Notes under the pieces: model-generated
Told to the model about the DNA's origin: nothing
Database searches by the model: none
What the model saw: the letters and a program-made list of their open reading frames with translations, nothing else
Made by a program: the position numbers and the translations under genes
From: Petroclostridium sp. X23
GTDB taxonomy: Bacteria > Bacillota > Clostridia > SK-Y3
Length of the DNA: 64,000 nucleotides
Direction: 5' to 3'
NCBI RefSeq assembly: GCF_030013905.1
Contig: NZ_CP124862.1
Span: forward strand, 2,669,051-2,733,050
Shown: piece by piece, positions 6,100 to 19,797 of the stretch
How positions within the stretch are numbered: position 1 is the first letter of the stretch
Layout: every line of letters starts with the position of its first letter

Positions 6100-6109
6100 T
6101 ATAAATCCC

Positions 6110-6622
6110 TTAACCTTTTTTTGCAATTTTCATGGCCTGCGCCCATGTTTCACGCAGTTCTCGGGTAAAAGTTATCATTTCTCTTAATAAATCAGTATCT
6201 TTCTTAATATTTGCTTGCATCAAGCTATTATTTATGAATTCATATAGGCTATATAAATTTTGGGACATCTCATAGTCCATGTTTAAAGTACTCATTAACT
6301 CTGTAAAAATATCTTGAGCTCTTACGATTGTCATATGGGACTTCTCAATGTTTTTCATCTGTATATGGATAATCGCTTGATTCATGAATTTTAACGCACC
6401 GTCATACAGCATTAGGGTTAGCTCTTCAGGAGATGCTGATAGTACCGCATTCTCTAAATATTGGTTCGCTCCGTTAGCGGTGTTTGTAGTTTGTATAGAA
6501 TTCACAGGCTGCGTTGTTGTAGTTCTATATGTTTCCTGATTGTTAACAGCTTGTTGATTGGTCTGCGTTTTTTTTACTGTAGCATATCTTTGGTATGCTG
6601 CATAGGGATTATTCAATGCCAT
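6110..6622 (-). CDS. fliS: Flagellin export chaperone FliS
   Basis: The 170-residue protein begins NNPYAAYQRYATV and has the FliS core from about residue 52: ENAVLSASPEELTLMLYDGALKFMNQA, then AQDIFTELMSTLNMDYEMSQNLYSLYEFINNSLMQAN. FliS caps the C-terminal helices of cytoplasmic flagellin. It is about 40 residues longer than usual because a Gln/Thr/Asn-rich insert (13-51) separates the N-terminal motif, which in known structures lies in the flagellin-binding groove, from the helical bundle. GAGGTG six bases ahead fixes the ATG at 6622. Next in the operon is an overlapping FlgN-like gene. Confidence 0.93.
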   Translation of the reverse strand: MALNNPYAAYQRYATVKKTQTNQQAVNNQETYRTTTTQPVNSIQTTNTANGANQYLENAVLSASPEELTLMLYDGALKFMNQAIIHIQMKNIEKSHMTIVRAQDIFTELMSTLNMDYEMSQNLYSLYEFINNSLMQANIKKDTDLLREMITFTRELRETWAQAMKIAKKG

Positions 6623-6672
6623 TGTATACACCTCATTCAACTTTTTACTTTATATATCCCTGTGTTATCAAG

Positions 6673-7077
6673 TTATCCTCTTCGATCGACAATAATACCT
6701 GCCATCTCCCACAGCTTCGCAACCATGTCCAAAGTCTTTTCCGGCGGAATCTCTCTAATCACTTCTTTCGTTTCCTTATTAAGCACCTTAATCATAATTT
6801 CTCGTGTCTTTTCATGAATAGAGAATTCAAAGGATGTATTAATCCCTTGTACCGCTTTATTTGCTTTTTCAATGGCGTCAATAATTGCTTTTTCTGAAAT
6901 AGAAAGAAAATTATAACTCGTATCTTTCTTCTCCAACAACTCTTTCGAAGAAGGTAAACTCTGTATTTTTTCTGTATACTCACTCATGTTGACTTTAGTG
7001 TCAATAGCACTCTCTGTACTTTTAGAAGGATATGCCGTATAGTTTGGCTGATTAATGCTACTGATTTCAATTCCCAT
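6673..7077 (-). CDS. flaG: Flagellar protein FlaG
   Basis: The 134-residue protein has a variable N-terminal half and the FlaG domain at about 60-130: FEFSIHEKTREIMIKVLNKETKEVIREIPPEKTLDMVAKLWEMAG, including the REIPPEK signature. FlaG affects filament length in several bacteria but its mechanism is unclear. GGGGG precedes the ATG. It lies between the FliT-like gene and fliS, in the usual Bacillota order fliD-fliS-flaG permuted. Confidence 0.92.
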   Translation of the reverse strand: MGIEISSINQPNYTAYPSKSTESAIDTKVNMSEYTEKIQSLPSSKELLEKKDTSYNFLSISEKAIIDAIEKANKAVQGINTSFEFSIHEKTREIMIKVLNKETKEVIREIPPEKTLDMVAKLWEMAGIIVDRRG

Positions 7078-7100
7078 AAATTTTCCCCCAATACGCTAAA

Positions 7101-7505
7101 TTATTTTTTCTTATCTAAAAAATATCCGTAAGCAGATATGTTTTGTTTCATATACCCATTAGACATTGCTTCTTTTGAATGCTTTACTTGCTGAATACGG
7201 TTAAAAGTCTCTTCTTTTATCTTGGCTAGATTTTCAGCATTTTCTTTATCCAATTCATATATTTGTTTAAAAAAATTTATGATGTCCAATTCAAGTGTCT
7301 GTAATTTTCCTGCATTTCTCTGATACTGTTCCATACCTTGATCTATTCCAGCAATCCTATCTAAAAGCTTCTGACGACTTTCAACTAAGATCAATAGATT
7401 CTCAATATTTTCATCAGCAATGCTTTCACTCTGAGCGAGTGTATTTTTATATATCTTCTCGGAGAGTTCTTTTTTCTCCAGCAGTAGAGTATTCCTATCC
7501 TCCAT
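7101..7505 (-). CDS. FliT-like flagellar chaperone
   Basis: The 134-residue all-helical protein (LEKKELSEKIYKNTLAQSESI, LVESRQKLLDRIAGIDQ, FFKQIYELDKENAENL) begins one base after fliD ends. The E-RQ-LLDRI segment is the same signature as in the cluster's other FlgN/FliT-like proteins. FliT is the FliD chaperone and is normally encoded directly after fliD, so that role is inferred from position. Two alpha-helical hairpins and no membrane segment or signal peptide are visible. Sequence identity to characterised FliT proteins is expected to be low. Confidence 0.65.
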   Translation of the reverse strand: MEDRNTLLLEKKELSEKIYKNTLAQSESIADENIENLLILVESRQKLLDRIAGIDQGMEQYQRNAGKLQTLELDIINFFKQIYELDKENAENLAKIKEETFNRIQQVKHSKEAMSNGYMKQNISAYGYFLDKKK

Positions 7506-7506
7506 A

Positions 7507-9504
7507 TTAACTACCCATCCCCAACTGAGCCAATAGTGAATTTGTTTGGTTATTCAACTGGTTCATTGCTGTTTCCAGATTCGCATACTTTTTATATAGA
7601 CTGTCTTCCTTGCTATAGTAATTATCCCACATTAAATCCATGCGTTTTTCATAACCTAATATTTCATTATAGATCATATTATTAGTATAAGAACGATCTG
7701 CCTGAATTCCGGCTTTCTCAAGGAGTACCCCTTTACGCCCGCCACTATCGCTAAAAGTGGATATATTATCTTCAATAATATCGTATAACCGTTGGAACAA
7801 TCCCTCTTCATCGTATCGAATTTCCCTCTGTTCCTGTGATAACGTCCTATAATAAGCAGGTTCACTTGATGACTTCTGGCTGAATAAATTCATTACAGCA
7901 TCCGAATCATTCTGTATTGCATTTTTAAGCTTGGTTTCATCGATATTCAGCTTACCCTTCTCTGTATAAACCCCGGTAGTGATGCCAATACTGGTCAGAT
8001 TTATATTTACACCTTCAATAGGATCAAAAAGCGCCCTTCTCATATCCATTACGATTTTTTCTAAAATAGCATCATTTCTTAATAGACCCGTCTTTGCCTG
8101 TTCCTCCCAATTCTCTATTTCTTTTTCGCTCATGGCCTCTTTCTGCTCATCTGTAAGAGGGACATAATTGCGATCATATTTTTCCGATAGCCTGTTATTA
8201 ATGGTCGTTATCATCTCATTATACTTTTCTACGAACTTCTGAATATTTTCATAAATACCGTCTACATCCAAATCTACAGTAACATTTTGAATTGTATCTA
8301 CTTCTGTATCTTTCGGATCTCGCAGCAATGTATAGGTAAGATCATTTACGCTTAAAGAATTTGTGCTTCGGGTAATCTCCTGCTCATCAATCAGTGCCTT
8401 CGCATCCTTACCATAGGTCACCCCGTCTACATCACCGCTGTTTGGTATGACATTGTTTACTGAGATAGCACTTACAAAATTATATCCCGGATCTTCTTCA
8501 TTAATTATAATTGCCCCTGCGGCACCGGTCTCTTTAGAGGCTATTACAAAATGATCGGTGGTTTCATCATATCTCATGGTCACATTGGCAGTTTCATCGC
8601 CATTAATGGTGCTCATCATGTTGCTTAGAGACGTTGTTCTATCAAACTCAAAGGTTTTATTATTAATGGTAAATTTGAGCTTATCATTTTCATCAAATTT
8701 CCATGCAGTTTTCATTTTTGGTACAATGTTCTCTAAGGAATCATAGATATTAATACGGTTACTGGTACCTGGCGTAATTCTCAATATGCTTGTCGCATCT
8801 TTTGTCTCGGAACTACCGCTATATATTGATAGTTTTGTAGCTCCACTTACGGTAGAAAATTTAATCTTATCATCTGTTCCCACTTGTAGTACCTCAATTT
8901 TATCTGCTCCAAAGGCTTCATTAATTAGTTTTTGAAGTCCCTTCTTTGCAGGATCGCCTCCTCCGGTTATCAGGTCATCTGTCGTTGAATAGTCGGCATC
9001 AAAAGTGATCTCTTTTGTAACACCATCCAATGTAAGTGTTATACTTTTACCTTTAAGCTTCGCTGATGATAAATTCATATCTCGCGTACTAATCAGTTCC
9101 TGGGTAACATTTTCAGTGCTTTGTGCTTGCGCTGCTGAAGCCCTCTGCAGCACTTTAACACTATGGCTGCCCGACATCGCATTTACCGTGCCACTGACAG
9201 AAACTAATGTACTGGTTTGTCCTGTAGCGCTATCCACAGTAGAAGCCGTATATTTTTTATAATTGGATTGAGACAGCATATTGGTTGATGGTTTCAAAAC
9301 ATCCATATACTCGCTTTTAATCCCTCTTAATAGGTTGGTAACCTCTCTGTATTGATCACGTTTCCACTCGGCAACTTGTTTTTTTTGTGATACGACATCA
9401 ATACGCATTCTCTCAATACTGAGGGTATTTTTGATAATCGAATCAGTATCCAGTCCTGTAGCCAGTCCTGTCAACCTCATACTGTTAATCCGCGAAATCG
9501 TCAT
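7507..9504 (-). CDS. fliD: Flagellar cap protein FliD (HAP2) with an inserted module
   Basis: The 665-residue filament cap protein has the FliD_N motif (RLTGLATGLDTDSIIKNTLSIERMRID, residues 10-36), a helical D1 (to about 95), and the FliD_C region in the last ~250 residues (YEKMDLMWDNYYSKEDSLYKKY-like end with a Tyr/Asn-rich coiled coil and terminal LLAQLGMG). Residues ~149-243 form a beta-rich module (SITLTLDGVTKEITFDADY, LINEAFGADKIEV, IKFSTVSGATKLSIYSG) that resembles modules in this locus's flagellin and FlgL. FliD is longer than many (450-550). AAGGAGTGG precedes the ATG. A sigma-D-type promoter lies about 90 bp upstream. Confidence 0.95.
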   Translation of the reverse strand: MTISRINSMRLTGLATGLDTDSIIKNTLSIERMRIDVVSQKKQVAEWKRDQYREVTNLLRGIKSEYMDVLKPSTNMLSQSNYKKYTASTVDSATGQTSTLVSVSGTVNAMSGSHSVKVLQRASAAQAQSTENVTQELISTRDMNLSSAKLKGKSITLTLDGVTKEITFDADYSTTDDLITGGGDPAKKGLQKLINEAFGADKIEVLQVGTDDKIKFSTVSGATKLSIYSGSSETKDATSILRITPGTSNRINIYDSLENIVPKMKTAWKFDENDKLKFTINNKTFEFDRTTSLSNMMSTINGDETANVTMRYDETTDHFVIASKETGAAGAIIINEEDPGYNFVSAISVNNVIPNSGDVDGVTYGKDAKALIDEQEITRSTNSLSVNDLTYTLLRDPKDTEVDTIQNVTVDLDVDGIYENIQKFVEKYNEMITTINNRLSEKYDRNYVPLTDEQKEAMSEKEIENWEEQAKTGLLRNDAILEKIVMDMRRALFDPIEGVNINLTSIGITTGVYTEKGKLNIDETKLKNAIQNDSDAVMNLFSQKSSSEPAYYRTLSQEQREIRYDEEGLFQRLYDIIEDNISTFSDSGGRKGVLLEKAGIQADRSYTNNMIYNEILGYEKRMDLMWDNYYSKEDSLYKKYANLETAMNQLNNQTNSLLAQLGMGS

Positions 9505-9594
9505 AATTTTCCACTCCTTTTACACATCCACGCTGTCAATGAATCAATTTTTTGTAGTAAGCTATAACATATCTGTTGTAACCTTCTAAGTATT

Positions 9595-9622
9595 ATATCG
9601 TCAATTTAGATTAAATTATTTA
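9595..9622 (-). promoter_or_regulatory. Sigma-D-type promoter for the fliD operon
   Basis: On the minus strand TAAATAAT (9615-9622) and GACGATAT (9595-9602) are 12 bases apart. They match TAAAGTTT and GCCGATAA in the core TAAA and CGATA positions. The same 12-nt spacing occurs ahead of flgM and the flagellin gene. Confidence 0.7.
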
Positions 9623-9712
9623 TATACTAATAATATATTTCAGAATTTTATTATCAAAATTAAAGAAAAGATCCTTCTTAGGATCTTTCATTTATTCTAA
9701 ACAAGCATCTTT

Positions 9713-9940
9713 CTAAGACAATAGGATACTTTCACCGTTTAGAAGCCTCACCTGCTCTTCAAGGTCTTTCAACTGCTCATTAATCTTTTTGGTTTCTTCA
9801 ACAGATAGATCTTGATTAATTACTTTTTGAGCTAACTCTCTCATTTTAATAATACTATTATAGGTAGTAACTCCTAGCTTTGGTTGTATTATATCACATT
9901 GGTCATTATATGCTATAGACACTATTGTTTTGAATTGCAA
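9713..9940 (-). CDS. Small protein resembling the D1 helix of flagellin/FlgL
   Basis: The frame encodes 75 residues. From residue 28 it reads SIIKMRELAQKVINQDLSVEETKKINEQLKDLEEQVRLL, which lines up with flagellin 83-124 (MRELAVQSAS, then IQKELDQLKSEVDRI) and even better with FlgL (RELTVKASNGVLSVDDTLKI). Nothing else of flagellin is present. Its C-terminal 40 residues also match the 77-residue gene at 10731. The start is doubtful: 9940 is a TTG without a ribosome site, and an ATG at residue 33 lacks one too, so this may be a remnant with a broken 5' end. No function is known to me for such a protein. Confidence 0.45.
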   Translation of the reverse strand: MQFKTIVSIAYNDQCDIIQPKLGVTTYNSIIKMRELAQKVINQDLSVEETKKINEQLKDLEEQVRLLNGESILLS

Positions 9941-9981
9941 TAAGTTAATATATGTTAAGTGTCCGTGAAATCTATTCTTTA

Positions 9982-10605
9982 CTATTCCTGCTCATCTACC
10001 TCTGGAAGAACCCCAACAAATCTAGCCAGTGATATAACCGTCATAATAATTCCAGAAATCACCTCAAGAACTGCAATACTATGTAAGATACTAAATGTAT
10101 CTCCAAAATCTGATACAAGCTCACTATATTGAAAGGTAGCCATGCACAGGAAATTCTTTACTACATACTCTAGCCATGATCTAGACATAGGCTGATTTGC
10201 AATGGCAATGATCGAAATAATCACAGCACTATACCAAAATATAACTTCTATATAGTTATGAAGAAGAGCTAATACCATCCTCCGAATAGATTTTATCTTA
10301 TATTCTTTACCAATTTTCCAAGATCGATAAGAATCAAACAGCAGAACATTGATTTGATAGATAATTACTTCAAAAACCCGAATACTTCCGTAAAATATAA
10401 CCAGGAACATCAATTCAGGAACCGATTTTCCTATTCTGAACACCAAATAGGAGCTAACAATAGATCCTATCAGATTGCCTAAAACCCATCCATCCACAAA
10501 AGTATGGGTAATCTCTTTTTTAAAAGCGTTTTTTATAATGCTACATACGAGACTAAACATGGATACTTGCCTTAAAAAGCCAAATATAGATTCCCAAAAA
10601 TCCAT
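9982..10605 (-). CDS. Unrecognised membrane protein with channel-like architecture
   Basis: The 207-residue product has four or five hydrophobic segments (IGSIVSSYLVFRIG, ELMFLVIFYGSIRVFEVIIYQI, YIEVIFWYSAVIISIIAIA and a last IAVLEVISGIIMTVISLARF). Between the last two lies a polar re-entrant-looking stretch with FQYSELVSDFGDTF, which recalls the pore loop of two-TM potassium channels but has no TVGYG filter. I do not recognise the family. The ATG at 10605 follows AGAAGG; an ATG at 10641 behind GGGGG is an alternative. It lies between the two flagellin-D1-like small genes in an accessory island between fliC and fliD, so a motility link is only positional. Confidence 0.6.
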   Translation of the reverse strand: MDFWESIFGFLRQVSMFSLVCSIIKNAFKKEITHTFVDGWVLGNLIGSIVSSYLVFRIGKSVPELMFLVIFYGSIRVFEVIIYQINVLLFDSYRSWKIGKEYKIKSIRRMVLALLHNYIEVIFWYSAVIISIIAIANQPMSRSWLEYVVKNFLCMATFQYSELVSDFGDTFSILHSIAVLEVISGIIMTVISLARFVGVLPEVDEQE

Positions 10606-10730
10606 CAAAAATCCTTCTGATTTTCCTCTCAGTTTTTCCATATATTTTGTATACCCCCGATAATTTCCCAACGCAATACTGTCTACATGCGTAGGATCTT
10701 TGGCAGGTTTTGAAATAGAAATACTTTTCC

Positions 10731-10964
10731 CTAGGACAACTTAGTACTCTCACTGTCCAGTAGTCTCACCTGCTCTTCTAGGTCTTTCACGTTTTTGTCG
10801 ATCTTTTGCATTTCTTCATCAGTCACGTTTTCATTTGCTACCCACTGAGCTAGTCCTTTCATTTGAAGGAGTTTCTCTTCGATCATATCAAGGATTTGCA
10901 ATCGTTGTTTCACTCGCTCCAACTGTTCTTGTAGCTCTTTCTTCGCATGCTCTTGTTCTTTCAT
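10731..10964 (-). CDS. Small coiled-coil protein resembling the flagellin D1 helix
   Basis: The 77-residue protein is highly charged and fully helical (KEQEHAKKELQEQLERVKQR, then MKGLAQWVANENVTDEEMQKI and KDLEEQVRLLDSE). Residues ~33-70 match the 75-residue frame at 9713 and the flagellin/FlgL D1 helix pattern (M-x2-LA-x10-EE-x-x-KI-x7-L-x3-V-x-LL). The N-terminal third is an extra coiled coil. A weak GAGATGATG precedes the ATG. It follows the YjfB-like gene by 21 bp, so the two are probably co-transcribed. Unlike the frame at 9713 it has an ordinary start and looks intact. Function unknown. Confidence 0.65.
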   Translation of the reverse strand: MKEQEHAKKELQEQLERVKQRLQILDMIEEKLLQMKGLAQWVANENVTDEEMQKIDKNVKDLEEQVRLLDSESTKLS

Positions 10965-10985
10965 GTCATCATCTCTTTTTCTTCT

Positions 10986-11183
10986 CTACAGTCGAACATC
11001 TATATTTTTTCCAAGGTAAGGGGTGACAGATTGATCCATTATCTTAGTATTGTGCTGTACCATTTGTACCATATCATTCATTTGTATTTTTCCTGCATCC
11101 ATTACCATCTTCATGACTGAAATGCTTGCTTGCTGGGCTACTTTCATTTGGCTTAGTCCCATTGATAATGCTGCTATATCCAT
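10986..11183 (-). CDS. YjfB-family putative motility protein
   Basis: The 65-residue protein matches the YjfB_motility family: MDIAALSMGLSQMKVAQQASISVMKMVMDAG at the start and the terminal TPYLGKNIDVRL. AAAGGAGG gives a strong start. The family is found near flagellar genes in Bacillota but has no established function. Its last residues GKN-I-D-V-R-L are almost the same as the end of the DUF6470 protein in this cluster (GKN-V-D-I-R-L). Confidence 0.85.
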   Translation of the reverse strand: MDIAALSMGLSQMKVAQQASISVMKMVMDAGKIQMNDMVQMVQHNTKIMDQSVTPYLGKNIDVRL

Positions 11184-11201
11184 GGTATTGCCTCCTTTCT
11201 C

Positions 11202-11567
11202 CTATGATAATATTAGAGGTTTCATGATTTCTCCCAGTTCGTCTTTCCAGTTCTTGAAAGTTGGTTCTAATGTAAACTGCATGATTTCATAAACTTTTTG
11301 TCGATTTGTGCTTTCGTATTCTTTTACCATGATGTCAAAAGCTGTGCTTAGTTTTCCAGCTTTCTCTATTATCTTATTCTCAGGTAGTTTTTCTAGCATT
11401 GAAGATATGCTTTTTTCTATTTCTATAAAGGCAGATGTTAAATCTGTAAGAACAGTTATAGTTCCTTCTATATTAAGTTCTTCTAGTTTTTGTTTTACAT
11501 AGTCCATTCCCTCTTCCATAGTTTCTAAAAGGTCTAATATTTGTGCTATGACTTCTTGATTTGGCAT
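11202..11567 (-). CDS. Uncharacterised helical protein of the flagellar locus
   Basis: The protein has 121 residues from the ATG at 11567, which AGGTG precedes; an earlier in-frame start at 11642 lies in AT-rich leader. It is acidic and helical (AQILDLLETMEEGMDYVKQKLEELNIEGTI, AFIEIEKSISSMLEKLPEN, YEIMQFTLEPTFKNWKDELG). It resembles short proteins of clostridial flagellar regions, possibly those now grouped as DUF8042, but I cannot confirm this. It is the first gene after the flagellin terminator and starts a set of three or four small genes before fliD. It may bind a flagellar subunit; that is inference from location and size only. Confidence 0.6.
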   Translation of the reverse strand: MPNQEVIAQILDLLETMEEGMDYVKQKLEELNIEGTITVLTDLTSAFIEIEKSISSMLEKLPENKIIEKAGKLSTAFDIMVKEYESTNRQKVYEIMQFTLEPTFKNWKDELGEIMKPLILS

Positions 11568-11680
11568 ATTATCACCTACTTTCTTAATTTCGTTATATAT
11601 TCTGTATTTTAAAATCTTTAATAACAACTTTATACCTAACATAAGAATACAACACTATTCTTCCTTACCTATAAAGTATG

Positions 11681-11716
11681 CAAAAGAGCCAGAGGAAATA
11701 TTCCCCTGACCCTCTA
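11681..11716 (-). terminator. Flagellin gene terminator
   Basis: An imperfect stem (11685-11697 with 11702-11716) followed on the minus strand by TTTTG lies about 20 bp past the flagellin stop codon. Confidence 0.65.
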
Positions 11717-11737
11717 CTGTTATTGCTAGGTATTCAA

Positions 11738-14485
11738 TTATCTTAATAACTGAAGTACTCCTTGAGGCGCTTGGTTCGCTTGGGCTAGCATTGCTTGCGC
11801 TGCTTGTTGAAGAATGTTGTTCTTAGTGAATTCCATCATTTCCTTCGCCATATCTACATCTCTGATTCTTGACTCAGATGCTTGTAGGTTTTCAGAGGAT
11901 GTATCTAAGTTCTTGATTGTATGTTCTAATCTGTTCTGAAGAGCACCAAGCTTAGATCTTTCTGCTGACACAGATTCGATTGCATTATTGATTACAGTAA
12001 TTGCAGACTCTGCACCTTTTTGTGTTGTTACATCAATATCTCTTACTTTTAATGCACTACTGCTCATTTCATTTAAGTCTACTGCCAATGTTTGACCTTC
12101 ATTTGCTCCGATATGCATTGCTAAAGATGCATCGCTTTTTGCATCTTGAGCCTGTTGCGTAACAGTCATATCATTGAAAACTCTGTTAAATGCACCAACT
12201 TCAGAGCTATCTGTTGCTGATTTTACAGCATTAAATTTCATGTTACTTAAATCTTTTGAAGCTCCTGCTTCACCTTCGATATTCAGTTTACCTGTATCTG
12301 TATCTAAGGTAATATTGGCATTTTTTAATTCATCAACTTTCTTCATTTCATTAAATAAATCTTGTACTGTTGTATCATTTGTAACAGTAACAGATGTTGA
12401 GAATGCCTTGCCATCTTGTGTTCCACTGAAAGTGATTACATTTCCTGCTTCAATTCCTAAACTGTTTCCATCTGTATCTGCTAAAGTAATAAGCTGAGCA
12501 GAGTTTCCTAAACTACCATCTATGTGGTCTGTTCCAGCATTATCAACATTATTTGGTGCTGTGCTTACTGTAGCTGTATTAGTGGCATTTCCAATATATT
12601 GAGCAGCTCCATTTCCAGTGATTGTAAAGGCGGAAGCCCCTGCATTCGGTGTAAATTGAAGATACTCTGCTCCACCATCCGTTACTATGTTCACTGTAAC
12701 GGCATCCTTGCCAAATTCAGTATCTAAATGCTCTTGAATAACCTTAGCTAAAGTATTACTGGAAACATCCTTAGAAGCTGTGATTTCAGCTGCACTTGTT
12801 AAATCTAAAGAGGTTGCTTTTGTACCTAAGGTAAAGGTCAGGGTATTATCTGTTGCATGGGCACTTATTCCTCCAGCAAGGTCTACTGTACTGGTTATCG
12901 TTCCTGCTGTAGCAGCTCTTCCAATTGCTGTTTGTGCTGTTCCTGCAACCGCTACGCTAGAATCTGCGCCCTTTGTAGCTGATGTGAAGACAATTTTATT
13001 ATTATCATCTAAAGAGGCTTCTACTTTCCCCTTTAGGGCTGCATTTCCATCTATTTTCGTATTGATTTCATCTACTAAGTCTTGGCGAGTCTTATAGGTT
13101 CCAGCCTCTAAAGTAATGTTTTGGGCAGTTCCTCCGTCTACTGTTAAGTTAAGGACATCATTAACACCTGTGGAGATCACAGTTCCTTCTGCCCTTGCAT
13201 TGATATGGTCTACCCCTGATGTAGCACTTGCAGCCCCTACAGTGGTTGCTGCAGCTGATGTAACTGTACCAACATTAACTGCACCATTTGTTGATGTATC
13301 TACAGTCAAAGCATTTGCACGCAATCCTTCTGCCAAGGTAAATGTCATATTGTTACTACCATTGAGACCTACAGTTAATGCACCTGCACCAAATGCAGTA
13401 TTTATCTTTCCTTGAATATGAGTTACATAGTCTTCTCTAGTATAGGTACCTGCATCCAAAGTAATCGTTGCTGTCTTACTACCTATAGTAATATCTATTT
13501 GATCACTTGCACCAGCCGCTACTGTATTTGTAGTTGCATGTATCGTACCATCTCCTGCACCGGTTGTACGATATTCGTCTCCATATCCCATGGTTGCAAG
13601 TGCGTCCCCTTCTGTTCCAGCAGAAGTAGCAGCGGCAACTGTAATACTTGTACCTGAGCCGTCATCTCTTGTTTGGATGACCAGTTTATTATTATCATCT
13701 ACAGTTACATTTACTTGCTTATAATATTCATTCGCTGAAGCAGCTGTCAACGCATCATTAATTGCCGTTTGAACAGCTGATGCAAAGTCTTCTCTAGAGT
13801 AGCTGCCTGCAGCAATGGTAACATCTGCCAATGCTTCACCATTGATCGTAATATCAAAGGCATCATTTACGTCAGATCTAATCACTGTGGTTTCAGCCAA
13901 TGCGATAGAGCCAGTTAATTTATATCCCTGTCCTTCTTGTCCAGCAATGGCTTCTTTGATAGCTACTGCACCTCCTGCTGTAGCTGTACCTGCTGCAGCT
14001 TGAACATCCATTGCATTGAATTTATTGGAAACTGCTTTTGTACCTTGTAATTCTCTTGATGAACTTAAACTACCATTTAGTAGCTTCTTCGTATTGAATT
14101 CAGTAGTGAAGGCAATTCTATCCACTTCACTTTTTAATTGATCTAGCTCTTTTTGTATTTCTCCACGGTCAACACCTGCATTAGTGTCACTCGCTGATTG
14201 AACAGCAAGTTCTCTCATTCTTTGGAGAATCGCTTGAGTTTCTCCAAGAGCACCCTCTGCTGTTTGAATTAAAGAAATGGAGTCTTGTGCATTTCTAGAA
14301 GCTTGATTTAAACCTCTAATTTGTCCTCTCATTTTTTCAGAGATTGCAAGACCTGCTGCATCATCTGCTGCGTTGTTGATTCTAAAGCCTGATGATAATT
14401 TTCCCATTGACTTTGCACCATTAGCACCAGCAGTACCCAACTGTCTGTGGGTGTTCATTGCCATTAAGTTGTTGTTAATTCTCAT
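11738..14485 (-). CDS. fliC: Flagellin, 915 residues with five surface modules
   Basis: The filament subunit has complete D0/D1 ends: residues 1-145 (MRINNNLMAMNTHRQLG, RINNAADDAAGLAISEKMRGQIRGL, MRELAVQSASD) and about 815-915 (AIESVSAERSKLGALQNRLEHTI, then ESRIRDVDMAKEM and a final GVLQLLR). Ordinary flagellins have 270-500 residues. Here the centre holds five beta-rich modules of ~80-100 residues (about 199-296, 314-412, 434-524, 543-632 and 664-745) with a shared plan: DxITIxG.., a TI-x-L-x-AGTY stretch, R-x-D-x-x-x-x-I-x-x-x-I, then a DDNNK-type turn and a final beta strand. The last module resembles the flagellin hook IN motif. AAGGAGGAG gives a strong start; regulation is by a sigma-D promoter and probably by CsrA at the leader. 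Confidence 0.95.
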   Translation of the reverse strand: MRINNNLMAMNTHRQLGTAGANGAKSMGKLSSGFRINNAADDAAGLAISEKMRGQIRGLNQASRNAQDSISLIQTAEGALGETQAILQRMRELAVQSASDTNAGVDRGEIQKELDQLKSEVDRIAFTTEFNTKKLLNGSLSSSRELQGTKAVSNKFNAMDVQAAAGTATAGGAVAIKEAIAGQEGQGYKLTGSIALAETTVIRSDVNDAFDITINGEALADVTIAAGSYSREDFASAVQTAINDALTAASANEYYKQVNVTVDDNNKLVIQTRDDGSGTSITVAAATSAGTEGDALATMGYGDEYRTTGAGDGTIHATTNTVAAGASDQIDITIGSKTATITLDAGTYTREDYVTHIQGKINTAFGAGALTVGLNGSNNMTFTLAEGLRANALTVDTSTNGAVNVGTVTSAAATTVGAASATSGVDHINARAEGTVISTGVNDVLNLTVDGGTAQNITLEAGTYKTRQDLVDEINTKIDGNAALKGKVEASLDDNNKIVFTSATKGADSSVAVAGTAQTAIGRAATAGTITSTVDLAGGISAHATDNTLTFTLGTKATSLDLTSAAEITASKDVSSNTLAKVIQEHLDTEFGKDAVTVNIVTDGGAEYLQFTPNAGASAFTITGNGAAQYIGNATNTATVSTAPNNVDNAGTDHIDGSLGNSAQLITLADTDGNSLGIEAGNVITFSGTQDGKAFSTSVTVTNDTTVQDLFNEMKKVDELKNANITLDTDTGKLNIEGEAGASKDLSNMKFNAVKSATDSSEVGAFNRVFNDMTVTQQAQDAKSDASLAMHIGANEGQTLAVDLNEMSSSALKVRDIDVTTQKGAESAITVINNAIESVSAERSKLGALQNRLEHTIKNLDTSSENLQASESRIRDVDMAKEMMEFTKNNILQQAAQAMLAQANQAPQGVLQLLR
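12251..13891 (-). repeat. Five diverged modules inside the flagellin gene
   Basis: This stretch encodes flagellin residues ~199-745. The modules are diverged at DNA level but keep the same secondary-structure plan and spacing. Composition is richer in G and C than the flanks, with Ala, Thr, Asp and Gly dominating. The boundaries are judged by eye. Confidence 0.65.
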
Positions 14486-14492
14486 AATATAA

Positions 14493-14530
14493 CTCCTCCT
14501 TGATAAATATTTCGGGCATCCATGCCCCTA
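14493..14530 (-). promoter_or_regulatory. Flagellin leader: CsrA-type hairpin and ribosome site
   Basis: On the minus strand a hairpin GGGCA-TGGA-TGCCC (14513-14527) presents ATGGAT in its loop region, close to the CsrA SELEX core CA-n-GGAUG. Twelve bases downstream the Shine-Dalgarno AAGGAGGAG (14493-14501) holds a second GGA. Bacillus hag has the same two-site arrangement. The genes for CsrA and its antagonist FliW are directly upstream. Binding itself is inferred. Confidence 0.6.
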
Positions 14531-14537
14531 CTTTTTT

Positions 14538-14565
14538 AATGGACAATGGACAATGGACAATGGAC
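14538..14565. repeat. Heptamer tandem array (AATGGAC unit)
   Basis: Four exact 7-bp units lie in the flagellin 5' leader, just upstream of the CsrA-type hairpin. Confidence 0.85.
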
Positions 14566-14612
14566 AATATAAAATTGCCGACCGTTCAAAGCAATTGTCC
14601 GATATTAACATT

Positions 14613-14628
14613 ATGGTTGGCCAACCAT
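14613..14628. promoter_or_regulatory. 16-bp perfect palindrome in the flagellin leader
   Basis: ATGGTTGG-CCAACCAT lies about 15-30 bases downstream of the predicted transcription start. It could be a repressor operator or a small RNA hairpin. No protein is known to me for it. Confidence 0.5.
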
Positions 14629-14650
14629 TTGTTTTTAGATTTCAATATAT

Positions 14651-14678
14651 ATATCGATTTAAATCTTCAAATACTTTA
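14651..14678 (-). promoter_or_regulatory. Sigma-D-type promoter for flagellin
   Basis: TAAAGTAT (14671-14678) and ATCGATAT (14651-14658) are 12 bases apart on the minus strand. The leader would be about 155 nt. Confidence 0.7.
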
Positions 14679-14687
14679 GCGAAAAAC

Positions 14688-14720
14688 AAAAAAATTCTAC
14701 AGGTTTTGTAGAATTTTTTA
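14688..14720 (-). terminator. Terminator after csrA
   Basis: Stem AAAATTCTAC (14691-14700) with GTAGAATTTT (14708-14717), preceded and followed by A/T runs, separates the flgM-csrA operon from the flagellin promoter. Confidence 0.8.
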
Positions 14721-14747
14721 TAATCTCTAGATAATTCAATAATGATA

Positions 14748-14966
14748 TCACTTTTTAAATAGTCCATAAAGATCTGTAGGCTTACTGTCAGCTGCTTTTT
14801 TATTTTCTTCTTGAATTTCAAGGAATACTTCCTTCCTATGTATGGTTATATTACGAGGAGCACTAATGCCAAGGCGTACTTGGTCTCCCTGGATATCAAT
14901 AATAGTAATTTCGATATTATCTCCGATGATGATGGACTGGGTCTTTTTTCTAGATAGCACGAGCAT
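14748..14966 (-). CDS. csrA: Carbon storage regulator CsrA
   Basis: The 72-residue RNA-binding protein shows the CsrA fold: [47 protein letters not shown], including the Arg that contacts GGA RNA in R-L-G-I-x-A-P and R-K-E-V. In Bacillota, CsrA represses flagellin translation and is titrated by FliW. The ATG at 14966 follows GGTGG and lies four bases past the fliW stop codon, so the two are coupled. The longer GTG frame from 14978 only adds four residues read from the fliW end. The C-terminal tail (from about 52) is variable. The likely target is the hairpin in the next gene's leader. Confidence 0.95.
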
Positions 14967-14970
14967 GGTT

Positions 14971-15420
14971 TCATCCACCTGCCTTTTGCTGGAATTGTTC
15001 CATAAAATAGTACTTGATGGGATAATCGCCTTTTTCCATTACAACCTGCTTGCCTTTATTATTATCAGCATTAATCAATACAGGCGCTTTTAAGTTAGCT
15101 GTCATTTTAGCCAGTTCTTCGGGTACTACTACAATAGAATAAATGTTTACTTTTGCAGTATCTTTGATCTCTAGAACTTCTATCTCACTATCATCAATAT
15201 CTATCACATAATTTGGAGTGATAAGTCTTGGGTCAATGATTACAAAGGCAAGTTCCGGCATGTCCACTCCTTGGAGCCAGCTAAAAGGAAGGGTCTCATC
15301 TTCGCTATGGATAACTATAAACTTTTTAATTTGCTCAAAACCGGGGATGCCTTCCGGGAAATCAATGATATTTTTTTCATCTATTTCAATTGTACCAAAG
15401 TACTTTGTATGTAACTTCAT
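14971..15420 (-). CDS. fliW: Flagellar assembly factor FliW
   Basis: The 149-residue protein has the family pattern: [58 protein letters not shown], and [17 protein letters not shown]. FliW binds either flagellin or CsrA, so it senses unassembled flagellin and relieves CsrA repression. GGAGG lies nine bases before the ATG at 15420. It sits between the DUF6470 gene and csrA, as in Bacillus subtilis (yviE-fliW-csrA-hag). All three parts of the switch (fliW, csrA, flagellin leader) are present within 1 kb. Confidence 0.95.
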
Positions 15421-15501
15421 AAACTTCCTCCTGCATTCATTATACATTGTTTCCATTTTAGTTAAACTTTAAATAGGATAATTAAGAATTATTTAAATAT
15501 C

Positions 15502-15527
15502 TGGGGTAGACACAAGGCCTACCCCTA
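15502..15527. repeat. GTAGGG-type hairpin repeat
   Basis: On the minus strand it reads GTAGGGGTAGGC, loop, GTCTACCCC, a member of the GTAGGG-headed hairpin family. It lies between fliW and the DUF6470 gene. Confidence 0.6.
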
Positions 15528-15563
15528 CCATACAATATTGCTGAATTAAAAGAGTGTAGAAAT

Positions 15564-16118
15564 CTACAACCTGATATCAACATTCTTGCCTGCATATTTA
15601 AATTGAATGGATGCTTCTTGTTCCAGATATATATTTATTTCAGGACGTGAAGCTTGTATATCTACCTGACCCGGCTGATAATCGTATTGAACTGCACCGG
15701 GTTGGTAGTTAAACTTTATATCTCCTGTCACTTCTATTTTAGGTCTGCTTTTAGGTATAAACCCAATGTTAAATTGTTTTTCCGGATACGCGTCGCGTAC
15801 CGCCATGTTCGGAATAGGGTTACTGCCGTTTTCTATTGATGCCAGCGTATGTCCGTCTGCGACCGTTTTAGAAATATATTGCATCACCTGCTGTGATGCC
15901 AACTGAGATGCTTCCTTCAAAAGATCCATATTGTTCTTTAATCCAGCTTCCGCGAAACACTGATACTGGTCTATCTGCACTTTAGGAAGCTCTGACTCTA
16001 TCTCAACTTTAGCATTCTCTTGGCGTATATCTAATCTAGGAGGTGTTGATTTCATATTAAGCTGTGTATTTTTTGTTTCAATCCCTATTCGTGCATAGGT
16101 CTGGGTTATCTGCAGCAT
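15564..16118 (-). CDS. DUF6470 family flagellar protein (YviE-like)
   Basis: The 184-residue protein matches the YviE/DUF6470 family: it starts LQITQTYARIGIETKN, repeats short beta units (PPRLDIRQENAKVEIE; PGAVQYDYQPGQVDIQASRPEINI) and ends KYAGKNVDIRL. The family is encoded next to flgL and fliW in Bacillota; its job is unknown. The end is shared with YjfB-family proteins. GGGAGG precedes the ATG. It overlaps none of its neighbours and is 12 bp after flgL, in the same operon. Confidence 0.85.
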   Translation of the reverse strand: MLQITQTYARIGIETKNTQLNMKSTPPRLDIRQENAKVEIESELPKVQIDQYQCFAEAGLKNNMDLLKEASQLASQQVMQYISKTVADGHTLASIENGSNPIPNMAVRDAYPEKQFNIGFIPKSRPKIEVTGDIKFNYQPGAVQYDYQPGQVDIQASRPEINIYLEQEASIQFKYAGKNVDIRL

Positions 16119-16130
16119 AATATCCTCCCA

Positions 16131-18155
16131 CTACTTAATAAAGTCAACTAATGTTGGTTGGATCACTCTGGCACCGGTTGATAACGAAGCGCGATATACG
16201 CTTTCTTCCATTTGCAGGCGAATGATGACTTCCGCCATATCTGCATCTTCATTTTTACTCATAAGTCCGGTAAAACTAATGTTATCATCTTTTAACCTGT
16301 TATCTGTAAGTTCAATAAAATTCATTCTCCCGCCTACATCAGCTCTCACTTTAAGTAAGCGATTCATATCTTTATCCAAGTCGGCAAGCATATCGTCTAT
16401 CTCGAATTCATAGTTGGTAACAACTAAAGTTCCCGAATCATCCGTAATTGTCTTATACGATGTTTGTCCCTCCAGCGCCATCTCAAGTTTTGTAAAGGTT
16501 TCAAATAACCCTTCGGTACCTTGTCCAAATATATCTGTTCCTTCCACATTAATCTTGATATTGTTACCAACACCTATTTCGTACACAATTTCCTGTTTTT
16601 GATTGGTTGTTGATTGTGCTCCATCGGTAAAGCCTAGGGTAGTTAACGTATCCGGTTTTGAATCGCTTATTGTAAACTCCTGTCCGGCGGCAGCTTGTAT
16701 TTGAATAGTACCTCCTGCCCCTTCTGTTACGGTGAATACGCCCGGGTATGTACTGTTAAGCTGAGGTATGAGTACATCATTAATAATATTCTCCCCGGCT
16801 GCGGGAGTTTGTGAAGGCAGCTTATATGTAACACCATCCTGTAATTTTATGGTTGTAGGTGTACCCCCGTCTAACGTAATATTAAAAAACAGATCCGGTA
16901 CTGCAGCAGTAAAGGATGTGAAAGCCGAACTTTCAAGCATTCCGCTGCTGCTTTTCCCCCCACTGCTAAAACCTAGCGAAGATACATCAAAATCACCAGC
17001 ATTATTTACCTTAATATTTTCTCCCTGGAGCACTGTAAACTTTAATCGCCCATTCTCACTGCTTGCTTTGACTTTGTCAGGCCCGAAAGCGGTATCAAGC
17101 TGCAGATTCAACTCGGTTACCATAAAATCAAGATCATAATGAGTACCTTCTGTTAAACTTATGCGTTCTACAGTGCCATCTAGCGATATATCAAAATACA
17201 GATCGGGAGCCTGCGCGGTAAACTCTTCAAATTTCCCCATCATCAGTTCAGGCTGTCCATATACTTTATCCATATTCTCATTATAAAATATTTCATACAT
17301 CGCGTCGGTAACAGAACCGGAAACCGGCCCGCCAATGCCCGAAAACTTGCCTTTATAACTAAGTTTTTCCATTTCAGCCTCTACCACAGACTGCTCTTCG
17401 ATTTTCATAAAGTTCAACGCATTGATGCCCGGAGGTGTATCCGGACCAATGGTAATTTCTTGCGTACCTGCTTCCGCTGCAAAGGTTAAATATCCGGATG
17501 TATCAACAGTAGCTTTTATCTTGTCCGCGCCAAAAGCAGTATCCAGCTCCGGTTGCAATGCCGCTATAAAATCTGCCGGCGTACCGTAATCCGCGGTCAA
17601 TGTAATAGCCGTTTCAACACCATCTACATTTAAAACAAACTTTGATCCCGTTTCATCTCCTGACAAATCTATTGGCGCAATACTTTTTAGTGCCGGAGGA
17701 AGCGTGATCTTTTCAGCTTTATACGGTGGCTCATCTGTTTTAAAACCCGCAAAAACGTATCTTCCGGCATAAGCAGTATTACCGATTTCAACAATACTTT
17801 TTTTAAGCTGAGAAATTTCTTCTTTTATCTTTAATGTATCATCAACGCTTAACACACCATTTGATGCCTTCACTGTCAATTCCCGAACCCTTTGGATAAC
17901 ATCCCCCAAATTGCTTAAAGCACTTTCAGTTACTTCCGTCCACGATAACGCATCGCTGGTATTCTTTTGGAACTGCTCTATCTCAGAGACATCGGTCCGG
18001 AATTTCAACGCCCTTGAAGCAATAATAGGGTCATCAGAAGGCCTTGATATCTTCTTTCCCGTAGACATTTGCTGCTGCGCCTTTTCCATCCTGCCAAGAT
18101 TGTTATTTAAATTTATCATCATATTCCGAACCAGCATATTATTCGTGACTCTCAT
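16131..18155 (-). CDS. flgL: Flagellar hook-filament junction protein FlgL, enlarged
   Basis: The 674-residue FlgL (HAP3) has the usual ends: MRVTNNMLVRNMMINLNNNLGR, MSTGKKISRPSDDPIIASRAL and RVRELTVKASNG in the N-terminal D0/D1, and DADMAEVIIRLQMEESVYRASL at the C-terminus. Typical FlgL has 300-500 residues. The excess is three beta-rich modules, about 168-250, 313-397 and 415-509, each with D-L-x-F-x-I-x-L-D-G, LNxxLDTAFGxDKVKA-type helix and a strand ending in LGF. They resemble modules in FliC and FliD here. GGGAGGG sets the ATG at 18155; the earlier in-frame start adds ten unlikely residues. Confidence 0.94.
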   Translation of the reverse strand: MRVTNNMLVRNMMINLNNNLGRMEKAQQQMSTGKKISRPSDDPIIASRALKFRTDVSEIEQFQKNTSDALSWTEVTESALSNLGDVIQRVRELTVKASNGVLSVDDTLKIKEEISQLKKSIVEIGNTAYAGRYVFAGFKTDEPPYKAEKITLPPALKSIAPIDLSGDETGSKFVLNVDGVETAITLTADYGTPADFIAALQPELDTAFGADKIKATVDTSGYLTFAAEAGTQEITIGPDTPPGINALNFMKIEEQSVVEAEMEKLSYKGKFSGIGGPVSGSVTDAMYEIFYNENMDKVYGQPELMMGKFEEFTAQAPDLYFDISLDGTVERISLTEGTHYDLDFMVTELNLQLDTAFGPDKVKASSENGRLKFTVLQGENIKVNNAGDFDVSSLGFSSGGKSSSGMLESSAFTSFTAAVPDLFFNITLDGGTPTTIKLQDGVTYKLPSQTPAAGENIINDVLIPQLNSTYPGVFTVTEGAGGTIQIQAAAGQEFTISDSKPDTLTTLGFTDGAQSTTNQKQEIVYEIGVGNNIKINVEGTDIFGQGTEGLFETFTKLEMALEGQTSYKTITDDSGTLVVTNYEFEIDDMLADLDKDMNRLLKVRADVGGRMNFIELTDNRLKDDNISFTGLMSKNEDADMAEVIIRLQMEESVYRASLSTGARVIQPTLVDFIK

Positions 18156-18232
18156 CTTTACCCTCCCAAACTTCAAAGTCAACAATAATTATTTTTCATT
18201 AATCCAATTTTTTAATTGTCAATTGTTATTGG

Positions 18233-19750
18233 CTAAACTCCTACTCTATTAATTAACGTATCATAGATCTCATCCATCACCGTGATCATCTTTGCTGCTG
18301 CATTATAGGCGTGCTGATATTTTACCATATTTGCCATTTCTTCATCTACAGACACACCGGATAACGATAATCTCCGATTGTCGATCTGCTGTACAAGATT
18401 CTCCTGATTTCCCGAAACTCTTACTGCTTGTTGGGCGTCTACCCCTAACATCGCTACTAGTGATTTCATAAAGTCTTCCGGTGCACCTTCATTGAACATC
18501 TTGCTTTCGTGGCGTAGTTCCAGTAAACTTGCGATATTTCCGTTATTTCCTGCTTCTCCGCCTACAGATGCTGTAGCTATTTTATAAATATCACTCTCTA
18601 CATCCGAAGAGATAGAGATATTTGCTGCTGTGAGCTTATCGTAACCGTTTTCTACAAGTTGGGCAGAAGACTTGTTCTCATAAGAGAAAAATCTTACGCC
18701 AACAGAACCATCCAATCCCACACCTCCTGCATGTCCCGCATAGTGCTGTTCGCCATCTTTCAATATTCCTTCATTAAATGTTTTTGCAAAACTTTGTGCG
18801 AATTCATCCAGCTTTTCGAGGTAATAGGGTATTCCTTTATATTGTCCTGCTTCTCCATTTCCATCACGAACATCCAAATATCCTTTTAGTTCTCCACCCT
18901 TTGGAATCATCTCATTACCGCTCTTTGCCCACTGTATGCCATACATGCCGTCCCTATGGGAACCTTCATCGATTTCAAAAGTTTCCAATTCATATGTATC
19001 AAAATGATTAACAAGGTATGAGCCATTTATAGTTACTTGAAAGCGGCGGTCTTCCTTTCCGTTAGGCAACTTTCCGACAACAACTTCACTGGCCTGTATA
19101 TTAGCTAATTTAGACAGTTTGTCAAGAAGCAGCGTTCTTTGGTCTCTTAAGTCGTTAGCTGCATTACCGTCTAATTCGGACTTATAGATTTGTTCGTTCA
19201 AATCTTTTATTTGCCGGGTGTAAGAGTTTAATTCATCTACTTTAATTTTTAATGAATAATTATTGTCGTCTCGCATTTTTTGAAGATGGGCGGCTGTGCT
19301 GTTTAAATATTTGCATAATGATACACCTTTTTGTTTCACTGATGCTCGTGCCGCTTCACTACTGGGATCCTTTGATAGTTCCTGCAAGGATGCAAAAAAC
19401 TCGTCCATGACTGTTGTAAAACCGGTGTCGGACGGTTCATTAAAAATCGCTTCAAGATCCTCCATCGCATTGCTTTTGGTTTCCCATTCACCAAAAGAAA
19501 CATTCTCACTCCAGTATTTAAAATCCAAAAAGTCATCCCGAACGCGGTTTACTGCGGTAATCTCGGTACCGGTACCCACCATTCCCGTACCATCAAGCAG
19601 TCCGACCGGGCGCGTTGCTTTCTGTACCCCTACCTGTCGGGAATAGCCCGGTGTATTTACGTTATTAATATTATGGTTTGCGATATCCAATGATCTCTGA
19701 CTGGCAAACAACCCACTTATCGCAACATCTAATCCGAAAAAAGAACTCAT
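18233..19750 (-). CDS. flgK: Flagellar hook-associated protein FlgK, copy 1
   Basis: The 505-residue HAP1 has the N-terminal rod-hook motif (GLDVAISGLFASQRSLDIANHNINNVNTPGYSRQ, residues ~8-41), a central region with GNAANDLRDQRTLLLDKLSKLANI, and the C-terminal SGVSVDEEMANMVKYQHAYNAAAKMITVMDEIYDTLINRVG. FlgK joins hook to filament with FlgL. AGGAGAGA gives the ATG at 19750. It lies next to a second FlgK of similar length, which is unusual; both have intact ends. Confidence 0.93.
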   Translation of the reverse strand: MSSFFGLDVAISGLFASQRSLDIANHNINNVNTPGYSRQVGVQKATRPVGLLDGTGMVGTGTEITAVNRVRDDFLDFKYWSENVSFGEWETKSNAMEDLEAIFNEPSDTGFTTVMDEFFASLQELSKDPSSEAARASVKQKGVSLCKYLNSTAAHLQKMRDDNNYSLKIKVDELNSYTRQIKDLNEQIYKSELDGNAANDLRDQRTLLLDKLSKLANIQASEVVVGKLPNGKEDRRFQVTINGSYLVNHFDTYELETFEIDEGSHRDGMYGIQWAKSGNEMIPKGGELKGYLDVRDGNGEAGQYKGIPYYLEKLDEFAQSFAKTFNEGILKDGEQHYAGHAGGVGLDGSVGVRFFSYENKSSAQLVENGYDKLTAANISISSDVESDIYKIATASVGGEAGNNGNIASLLELRHESKMFNEGAPEDFMKSLVAMLGVDAQQAVRVSGNQENLVQQIDNRRLSLSGVSVDEEMANMVKYQHAYNAAAKMITVMDEIYDTLINRVGV

Positions 19751-19797
19751 ACTCACTCTCTCCTATATCTCTATATAAAATCTCAAGAAGAAAAAAA

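Follow-up and report, generated by a model that had tools for sequence, protein, structure and literature searches.

The locus described here raises the question of whether three proteins along the flagellar axis of Petroclostridium sp. X23 carry one and the same outer domain and, if so, what this domain is for. The window, i.e. the 64,000-nt stretch of DNA that was analysed (NZ_CP124862.1, 2,669,051–2,733,050) and to whose positions all coordinates refer, contains fliD for the filament cap protein (7507..9504; 665 aa; Pfam FliD_N at residues 16–124 and FliD_C at 365–652), fliC for flagellin (11738..14485; 915 aa; Pfam Flagellin_N and Flagellin_C), which is the sole flagellin gene found in the genome, and flgL for the hook-filament junction protein (16131..18185; 684 aa; TIGR02550 at 274.8 bits, cut-off 127.2), whose start is either a TTG at 18185 or an ATG (residue 11) at 18155. 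Two flgK copies are present at 18233–19756 (Pfam FlgK_D1) and 19833–21359 (BLASTP to the first copy, E 1e-95). These genes and all features discussed below lie on the minus strand. An earlier note on this DNA had placed fliD, fliC and flgL correctly and had claimed that their products share a surface module.

Among the proteins of the window, BLASTP aligned FlgL residues 180–262 with FliD 152–243 (E 2e-7) and FlgL 331–455 with FliC 330–465 (E 3e-5), while FliC and FliD matched each other directly at only E 0.068. The earlier note had proposed a profile search across the three proteins and their relatives, and this gave significant matches: a profile made exclusively of 11 FliD modules (that of the own FliD and those of 10 relatives; 10 of the 21 aligned FliDs were left out as lacking the module, cut off, tandem or divergent) was run against 1,713 distinct proteins and found FlgL at E 3e-32 and FliC at E 2e-20, the best ORF for any other protein reaching about E 0.1 and the best reversed sequence E 0.23. 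With an iterated profile, three segments of FlgL and four of FliC were matched at E 3e-11 or better. At a threshold of E 0.001 this profile detected the module in none of 1,381 other ORFs, in none of 141 complete FlgKs and in neither FlgK of the window; one reversed control sequence obtained E 0.0085. The whole genome holds ten copies, all in FliC, FlgL and FliD frames: FliC accounts for four, FlgL for three and FliD for one, and the remaining two belong to a second FlgL and a second FliD encoded elsewhere. The next match had E 0.37. Profile-profile comparisons from which the genome's own modules were excluded gave 99.4% for FliD–FlgL, 97.9% for FliD–FliC and 97.3% for FlgL–FliC. Judged by these profiles, FliC, FlgL and FliD carry one homologous module, and the claim of the earlier note thus holds in its core. 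A merely compositional likeness of Ala/Thr/Gly/Asp-rich strands might be suspected from the low identity to FlgL module 1 (12–32% over the collected modules), from the poor direct match of FliC with FliD, and from the fact that, of the 28 possible pairings of the eight modules in the window, just 13 exceed the top score (60) of 400 shuffled pairs. Pair scores that reach 122 where shuffles average 31, the high profile-profile values, and the shuffled, reversed and other-ORF controls nevertheless rule out such a chance origin for practical purposes.

The FliD module (residues 149–246; 8767..9060; iterated profile E 2e-19) is located between FliD_N and FliD_C, at the place of FliD D3, also called Head 2. 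FliC carries module 1 at residues 205–302 (13580..13873; iterated E 2e-13; matched by the FliD-only profile at 190–302 with E 0.003), module 2 at 323–403 (13277..13519; E 4e-16; FliD-only 321–404, 3e-9), module 3 at 438–518 (12932..13174; E 2e-15; FliD-only 441–515, 1e-6), of which a fold model was made, and module 4 at 542–636 (12578..12862; E 3e-11; FliD-only 567–624, 6e-4). In FlgL, module 1 (residues 177–264; 17394..17657; FliD-only 176–264, E 3e-16) occupies a site of its own ahead of an LSYKGK strand, as seen in the alignment with other FlgLs. Module 2 (residues 324–409; 16959..17216; iterated E 1e-20; FliD-only 319–410, 7e-12) marks a second site and groups with the module carried by the other FlgL of this genome, the second one (tree support 98/81). 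Module 3 (residues 428–522; 16620..16904; iterated E 3e-12) stands in tandem with it and escapes the FliD-only profile (427–523, E 0.7).

The counts of three copies for FlgL and one for FliD in the earlier note were thereby reproduced; of the five that it assigned to FliC, four could be demonstrated. The fifth outer domain (residues ~657–780; 12146..12517) is at most a candidate member, with E 15 for the iterated and E 9 for the FliD-only profile; hhalign gives it a probability of 9 against the FliD modules and 34 against those of FlgL. In FliC of Pseudobacteroides cellulosolvens, the last outer domain shares 42% identity with it and is matched by the FliD-only profile at E 0.003 at best. Since this counterpart is itself a row of the FliC set, the hhalign score of 97.7% between the fifth domain and that set is circular.

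FlgL module 1 is most likely of the FliD type, as it scores 66.6 bits with a FliD-only but 41.0 bits with a FlgL-only profile (own-genome modules excluded from both). The particularly close FliD–FlgL link emphasized in the earlier note is borne out in part. The AFG[AP]DK run on which that link was based is indeed common to FliD, FlgL 1 and FlgL 2 and occurs in just these three of the 66 collected modules, a rarity that is not an independent test given that the motif was picked from these same sequences.

Structure prediction, also proposed in the earlier note, yielded two models (pLDDT 73–74) built from alignments sharing no row, and both display the same order of main elements. Over ~85–100 residues, the predicted module comprises two strands, one helix and two or three strands, often with an LGF-type closing turn. 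In FliD of E. coli, Salmonella and P. aeruginosa, both models match D3 (approximately residues 113–233; 91–97 residues aligned) with Z 5.2–7.0, a range that may also reflect no more than a common arrangement, and they match Vibrio flagellins with Z 6.2–6.8. These fold matches are modest, with no Foldseek E below 0.001 and every flagellar Z below 8, and a family missing from the fold list was not counted as excluded. Sequence searches of the PDB ranked P. aeruginosa FliD second behind HPr in one case (E 0.016 and 0.007, respectively) and first in the other (E 0.025). Taken together, there is modest, model-based support for the module being a clostridial form of the FliD D3 (Head 2)/flagellin D2 outer domain.

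Such a likeness between FliD and flagellin has a precedent: according to passages of PMC5072837, Head 2 of FliD resembles flagellin with an RMSD of 2.7 Å at 17% identity. The known FliD D3 domains (5FHY, 5H5V/5H5W, 5H5T) occupy the same place in FliD, and 5FHY is the entry behind the sequence matches at E 0.016–0.025; in contrast to those cases, the module described here also occurs three times in FlgL and four times in FliC, linked by sequence profiles. Likewise, the flagellin D2 domains of Vibrio cholerae (9N8M, 9N8G, 9N8A, 9P7R) and P. aeruginosa (4NX9) are alike in fold (Z 5.8–6.8), whereas four tandem copies are present here. FlgL of Xanthomonas possesses an extra outer domain, D2, which is exposed at the junction; it is described as a beta-sandwich resembling D2 of FlgK, and no parallel to FliD D3 is drawn in the passages in question of PMC6155364. 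A "bulky D2 domain" exposed at the junction is likewise mentioned for Campylobacter FlgL in PMC12221982, and is comparable to our module in being an extra outer domain of FlgL. C. jejuni FlgK (352–465) appears in the fold lists with Z 5.0–5.3; regarding a sequence relation to FlgK-type D2, no FlgK was among the profile matches and hhalign against 25 FlgK2s gave 0.4%.

The earlier note had associated the module with Flagellin_IN. This was right in kind, as we take the general plan of the module to resemble that family, but formal membership has to be rejected. Flagellin_IN (PF07196) is matched by more modules than any other Pfam family, yet these number only four of 48, and its best E of 0.0049 is surpassed by chance-looking families reaching 0.0009. 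No place in the genome lies above the 22.7-bit gathering cut-off, the best score (21.2 bits) belonging to a part of the second FliD outside the module; one place in FliC module 3 gave E 0.087. According to Table 1 of PMC5595980, no other domain is found as often in the variable regions of flagellins.

Among the complete proteins collected, the own ones not counted, the module was found in 15 of 18 FliDs, singly or in tandem, in 21 of 88 clostridial FlgLs and in four of 58 FliCs. In FliD it is the standard D3. Enlargement of FlgL, which had struck the earlier note as unusual, is less so in view of these 21 FlgLs and of the bulky Campylobacter domain. Copy number in FlgL of relatives varies from 0 to 4; Pseudobacteroides cellulosolvens DSM 2933, for instance, carries two modules in FlgL and six in FliC. 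One FlgL from the same family that has no modules shares 70% identity in D0/D1, and the linker between the modules is missing from it as well. A tree of the FlgL core (quick method with one kind of support, fragments and proteins below 285 aa excluded) implies nine changes of module state, at least three of which are forced by well-supported branches. Sequence comparison thus indicates that FlgL gained or lost module copies several times in Clostridia. Long proteins that show no module exist both among the FlgLs (698 and 687 aa) and among the four longest FliCs, where this holds for two (862 and 839 aa); therefore, size alone is not explained by this module.

Based on these data we propose, with a probability of roughly 0.7, that the module is the clostridial FliD D3/flagellin D2 domain and most likely serves as a passive, self-folding cassette on axial proteins. 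By position and orthology, it occupies in FliD the place of D3 of the cap plate. In FliC, the array of four copies is placed between the halves of D1, where it would presumably be exposed and decorate the filament; in FlgL, one copy followed by two at two sites of the D1/D2 region would decorate the junction ring, as solved junctions suggest. The cassette may thicken or brace the axial exterior without touching the D0/D1 core and, as it spares this core, copies could be acquired, dropped or increased in number. At the start of filament growth, the FlgL copies, FliC and the FliD plate might conceivably brace one another. Profile scores suggest that the first FlgL copy most likely came from a FliD-type module, and the copies probably diverged long ago and were not kept alike in this genome. 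The proteins of cap, junction and filament would then share one interchangeable cassette as their outer domain, recognizable by sequence and not by fold alone. A further step, tempting though at this point improbable, is to assume that FlgL acquired a FliD D3-type module in order for junction ring, cap and filament to show the same kind of outer domain, with like-with-like contacts assisting in cap seating and in the folding of the first flagellins. If true, this would extend to FlgL the idea of a "like-structured template" proposed for FliD and FliC in passages of PMC5072837. Across related bacteria, FlgL forms a natural gradation from 0 to 4 copies, which makes the role of its outer domains testable by removal.

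The earlier note favoured a different purpose, i.e. that the module had spread through the proteins of this filament, perhaps for a uniform surface serving, for example, adhesion or glycosylation; a variant of this view has the copies kept alike by selection or gene conversion. The confinement of the AFG[AP]DK run to this genome fits this idea, as does the observation that the best non-FliD match of the own FliD is the own FlgL module 1. Best cross-protein matches within the same genome were, however, found in only three of 31 cases against a shuffled mean of 2.16, a count reached by 187 of 500 shuffles. Although all three belong to the genome studied here, they all point to FlgL 1, the most FliD-like copy, and one comes from the second locus; moreover, FlgL 1 scores higher with Anaeromonas FliD (113) than with its own (101). 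On the tree, modules group by protein (14 label changes versus 28.2 after shuffling) and show no clear grouping by genome (50 versus 52.4, with 22 of 200 shuffles as low). The underlying tree (98 columns) has mostly weak forks, with 16 of 63 starred, and hence it is the scores that speak for a FliD-type origin of FlgL module 1. One module alignment left out 18 of the 66 modules, 13 of them from outside the related-loci set and five short or weak, and two further alignments drew on the same 53. At the DNA level, FlgL 1 and 2 resemble the FliD module no better than codon-shuffled DNA does, FlgL 3 being slightly above the shuffles (31 versus at most 25). All four of the longest FliCs are accompanied by a FlgL of at least 554 aa, and there is a weak correlation in length between FliC and FlgL (rho 0.34, n 56, uncorrected for kinship; second locus left out), but FliC length correlates equally with that of one module-less FlgK (0.34, n 29), and FlgL and FliD show no such correlation (−0.02, n 22). 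Matching of FliC and FlgL lengths is thus discarded, and the same-genome counts, the tree and the DNA comparison of FlgL 1 and 2 all make a uniform or homogenized surface quite unlikely.

A related view, which we also consider unlikely though slightly less so, regards the modules as adhesion domains that carry ligands or glycans, a higher copy number raising avidity. Flagellin outer domains often carry glycans, and Ser plus Thr make up 17–26% of the ten modules of this genome. By contrast, no match to PF01973 (MptE-like), which we understand to be linked to flagellin glycosyltransferases, was obtained at E 0.001, and the two matches to a NeuB profile are partial and weak (E 1e-11 and 1e-9) and, we presume, may reflect other aldolase-type synthases. 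What the copies share looks rather like a fold core than a site.

The module is also reminiscent of a phage tail sheath insertion domain (XM1, 7KH1; DUF3383 sheaths), which aligns to the models with Z 7.3–7.4, phage sheaths matching them as well as flagellar proteins do; unlike the module, the insert sits in a contractile sheath and is single in the proteins examined. Passages of PMC10457771 and PMC12846349 already state the likeness of this domain to FliD, and the former proposes host-to-phage transfer. Hence, the resemblance of FliD to flagellin and to phage sheaths is in print, and the occurrence in FlgL, on which our literature search found no paper, and the sequence link are the additions made here. 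The sheath insert (alignment without four of 15 phage proteins, namely J2-1, SP-15 and two lacking the insert) matched the flagellar modules in hhalign with 96.6% (E 5e-10 for the one comparison), while three other sheath parts gave at most 1.5%, reversed controls at most 2.7%, and 60 column shuffles scored at most 14.3 versus 53.9. A FliD-only HMM matched residues 94–205 of several sheaths (best E 7e-6), a FliC-only HMM found no sheath better than E 3, and two of 14 examined sheath proteins lack the insert. That the module passed from phage tail proteins to flagella or vice versa, with the flagellar copies here as recent imports, is nonetheless very unlikely: identity in the hhalign alignment is 19%, the value drops to 39.7% with the FliC set alone, FlgL modules 2 and 3 have no phage match at E 0.1, and FliC module 3 reaches E 4e-4 at best with an annotated phage. 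The link is deep and says nothing recent about this genome, yet a tie to phage tail sheaths that had been noted from structure now has support from profiles.

The outer module of about 85-100 residues (probably of FliD D3, "Head 2", or flagellin D2 type) is common to FliC, FlgL and FliD. Direct BLASTP comparison linked FlgL to FliD (E 2e-7) and to FliC (E 3e-5), the match between FliC and FliD reaching only E 0.068. A profile built from 11 FliD modules alone, the own FliD included, detected the own FlgL (E 3e-32 over the whole protein) and FliC (E 2e-20), with best values of about 0.1 for ORFs of other proteins and FlgKs and of 0.23 for reversed sequences. The profile search against the three proteins and related genomes that the earlier note had called for thus links all three. 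It covered flagellar loci of relatives collected as 20 genomic stretches, one of them the second locus of the own genome, and 80 named loci found via a FlgL alignment; their 1,831 ORFs gave, with those of the window, 1,713 distinct proteins. After iteration the profile recognized 66 modules in 45 proteins and none in FlgK or the other ORFs of this set; one reversed sequence scored E 0.0085. When modules of the own genome were excluded, profile-profile comparison gave probabilities of 99.4% for FliD-FlgL, 97.9% for FliD-FliC and 97.3% for FlgL-FliC. Among the eight modules of the window just 13 of 28 pairs exceeded the top score of 400 shuffled pairs, and single pairs are therefore often unconvincing alone.

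The positions of fliD (7507-9504), fliC (11738-14485) and flgL (16131-18185), all on the minus strand, were confirmed. They belong to a late flagellar cluster including FliS, FlgN-like genes, FliD, FliC, FliW, DUF6470, FlgL, FlgK and a second FlgK, and 6673-7077 is presumably a FlaG-like gene. In FliC and FlgL, Pfam recognized only the D0/D1 ends, in FliD only FliD_N and FliD_C, and it named no module in any of the three; the identity of FlgL is backed by NCBIfam TIGR02550 (274.8 bits). The iterated profile found three copies in FlgL and one in FliD, as had been read from the sequence, and four instead of the claimed five in FliC. Judged by sequence, the supposed fifth (residues about 657-780, window 12146-12517) is either a strongly diverged domain or one of another kind, whose sole relative in the collected set is a Pseudobacteroides FliC (42% identity). 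The complete 5.51-Mb genome, a single contig, holds two further copies, one each in another FlgL and another FliD, and beyond these ten no match better than E 0.37. Between fliD and fliC lie ORFs 9982-10671 (229 aa) and 11202-11642 (146 aa), for which a Pfam search gave no convincing match. Two different flgK genes adjoin at 18233-21359, an arrangement shared by the second locus and many relatives.

Structure prediction, carried out for two modules, bore out a common element order and gave modest fold matches. The alignment behind the model of FlgL module 1 consisted of FlgL and FliD rows, that behind FliC module 3 solely of FliC rows, and both models are of moderate quality (pLDDT 73.7 and 73.3; pTM 0.65 and 0.68). 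Both show the order strand, strand, helix, strand, strand, strand, short helix, with two short extra strands in FliC module 3. Both align with FliD D3 of E. coli, Salmonella and P. aeruginosa (residues about 113-233, Z 5.2-7.0) and with Vibrio cholerae flagellins (Z 6.2-6.8), although Z values of 5.2-7.0, taken alone, could stem from a common arrangement. Foldseek returned no match below E 0.001 for either model. Sequence searches of the PDB gave the same domain of P. aeruginosa FliD in second place (E 0.016, after an unrelated HPr at 0.007) and, in another search, weakly in first place (E 0.025). The assignment to the FliD D3 fold is based on the agreement of independent models, target and range, place in FliD and the weak PDB match. 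A flagellin-like Head 2 of FliD has been described (PMC5072837), and in searches of the open-access literature we found no publication on the module in FlgL.

Excluding the window's own, complete proteins carry the module in 15 of 18 FliDs, 21 of 88 FlgLs, 4 of 58 FliCs and none of 141 FlgKs (58 + 83), rates that are not population frequencies because the set was picked by likeness to FlgL. Of 196 genomes drawn from across the class, 52 had a match, the own genome ranking highest with ten. FlgLs with the module measure 412-759 aa, those lacking it 307 aa in the median, a few reaching 698. FlgL takes up its inserts at two sites: module 1 precedes the LSYKGK strand, and modules 2 and 3 follow this strand and a linker. 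A FlgL of the same family without any module is 70% identical in its core and lacks modules and inter-module linker alike; one-module members keep the linker and carry the module in the second site. A quick tree of FlgL cores (n=87), which cannot separate gain from loss, implies nine changes of module presence, at least three of them forced by well-supported branches. The module is multiplied in FliD too: Ruminiclostridium papyrosolvens, Anaeromonas and others have two or three copies there.

Modules seem to cross between proteins, because their profile preferences differ from the host protein. FlgL module 1 scores 66.6 bits with the FliD profile versus 41.0 with that of FlgL, and its modules 2 (59.8 vs 51.1) and 3 (28.9 vs 25.7) lean slightly towards FliD as well. 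For FliC, the best-fitting profile is that of FlgL in modules 1 and 3 and that of FliD in module 2. The proposal that the module spread within this filament, perhaps for a uniform outer surface, was not supported. The module tree requires 14 changes of protein label versus 28.2 after shuffling, but 50 changes of genome label versus 52.4 (22 of 200 shuffles needed no more). For 3 of 31 modules the best match in another protein came from the same genome, versus 2.16 in shuffles (at least 3 in 187 of 500). These three all belong to the own genome, one to its second locus, and all point to FlgL module 1. The crossing, as far as such comparisons tell, is not specific to within genomes. It also looks old at the DNA level: FlgL 1 and FlgL 2 match FliD no better than codon-shuffled DNA, and FlgL 1-2, FlgL 2-3, FlgL 3-FliD and FliC 1/2/3 among themselves lie slightly above such shuffles.

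We favour the view that the modules would act as passive decoration or bracing at the surface of junction, cap and filament, the contact part being conjectural, because FlgL D2 is exposed in a solved hook-filament junction (PMC12221982) and in a model (PMC6155364), and in Campylobacter the bulky FlgL D2 and the D4 domain of FliD may alter cap seating on the junction (PMC12221982). Matching of lengths among the axial proteins offers no more than a hint. The length correlation is weak between FliC and FlgL (rho 0.34, n=56, uncorrected), with 0.42 (n=20, p 0.06) for FliC and FliD and -0.02 (n=22) for FlgL and FliD; FliC correlates equally with a module-free FlgK (0.34, n=29), and among the four longest FliCs the profile did not find the module in two (862 and 839 aa). 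Separately, two partial and weak NeuB-profile matches in the own genome (C1:2880507-2881115 and 471427-472005) may represent other synthases of the same fold.

A search of viral contigs with FliC module 3 led to a DUF3383 tail sheath protein. Eleven sheath inserts matched the flagellar modules with 96.6% in hhalign (E 5e-10, referring to this single comparison), reversed sequences and other sheath parts giving at most 2.7%; by set, FlgL reached 96.3%, FliD 95.3% and FliC only 39.7%. This match adds sequence support to what structural papers already stated, namely that the same domain occurs in phage sheaths, nozzles, auxiliary capsid proteins, FliD and flagellin (PMC10457771, PMC12846349); domains of flagellin variable regions include Flagellin_IN and DUF3383 (PMC5595980). 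In DUF3383-type sheaths (phage stretches L185:5629-7128 and L189-L198) the homologous segment is a removable insert, missing from those of Vibrio phage CP-T1 and Klebsiella phage JD001 (L199, L200). SP15_279 of Bacillus phage SP-15 (L187:3938-4507, 189 aa, phrog_19400, function unknown) contains one such module, and phrog_19400 matches FliC module 3 with E 1.6e-9. The putative flagellin FlaA annotated in Brevibacillus phage Sundance (KT151959 47334-47579) matches at chance level (E 2).

The second flagellar locus (L037, C1:5046000-5065999) contains at 4259-13572 a compact set of flgD, flgE, two flgK, flgL, fliD and a 146-aa gene. No flagellin gene was found in this set, and searches of the own genome gave one flagellin and one FlhA. 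Its flgL (467 aa) and fliD (634 aa) products carry one module each, and a transposase gene lies upstream of the set.
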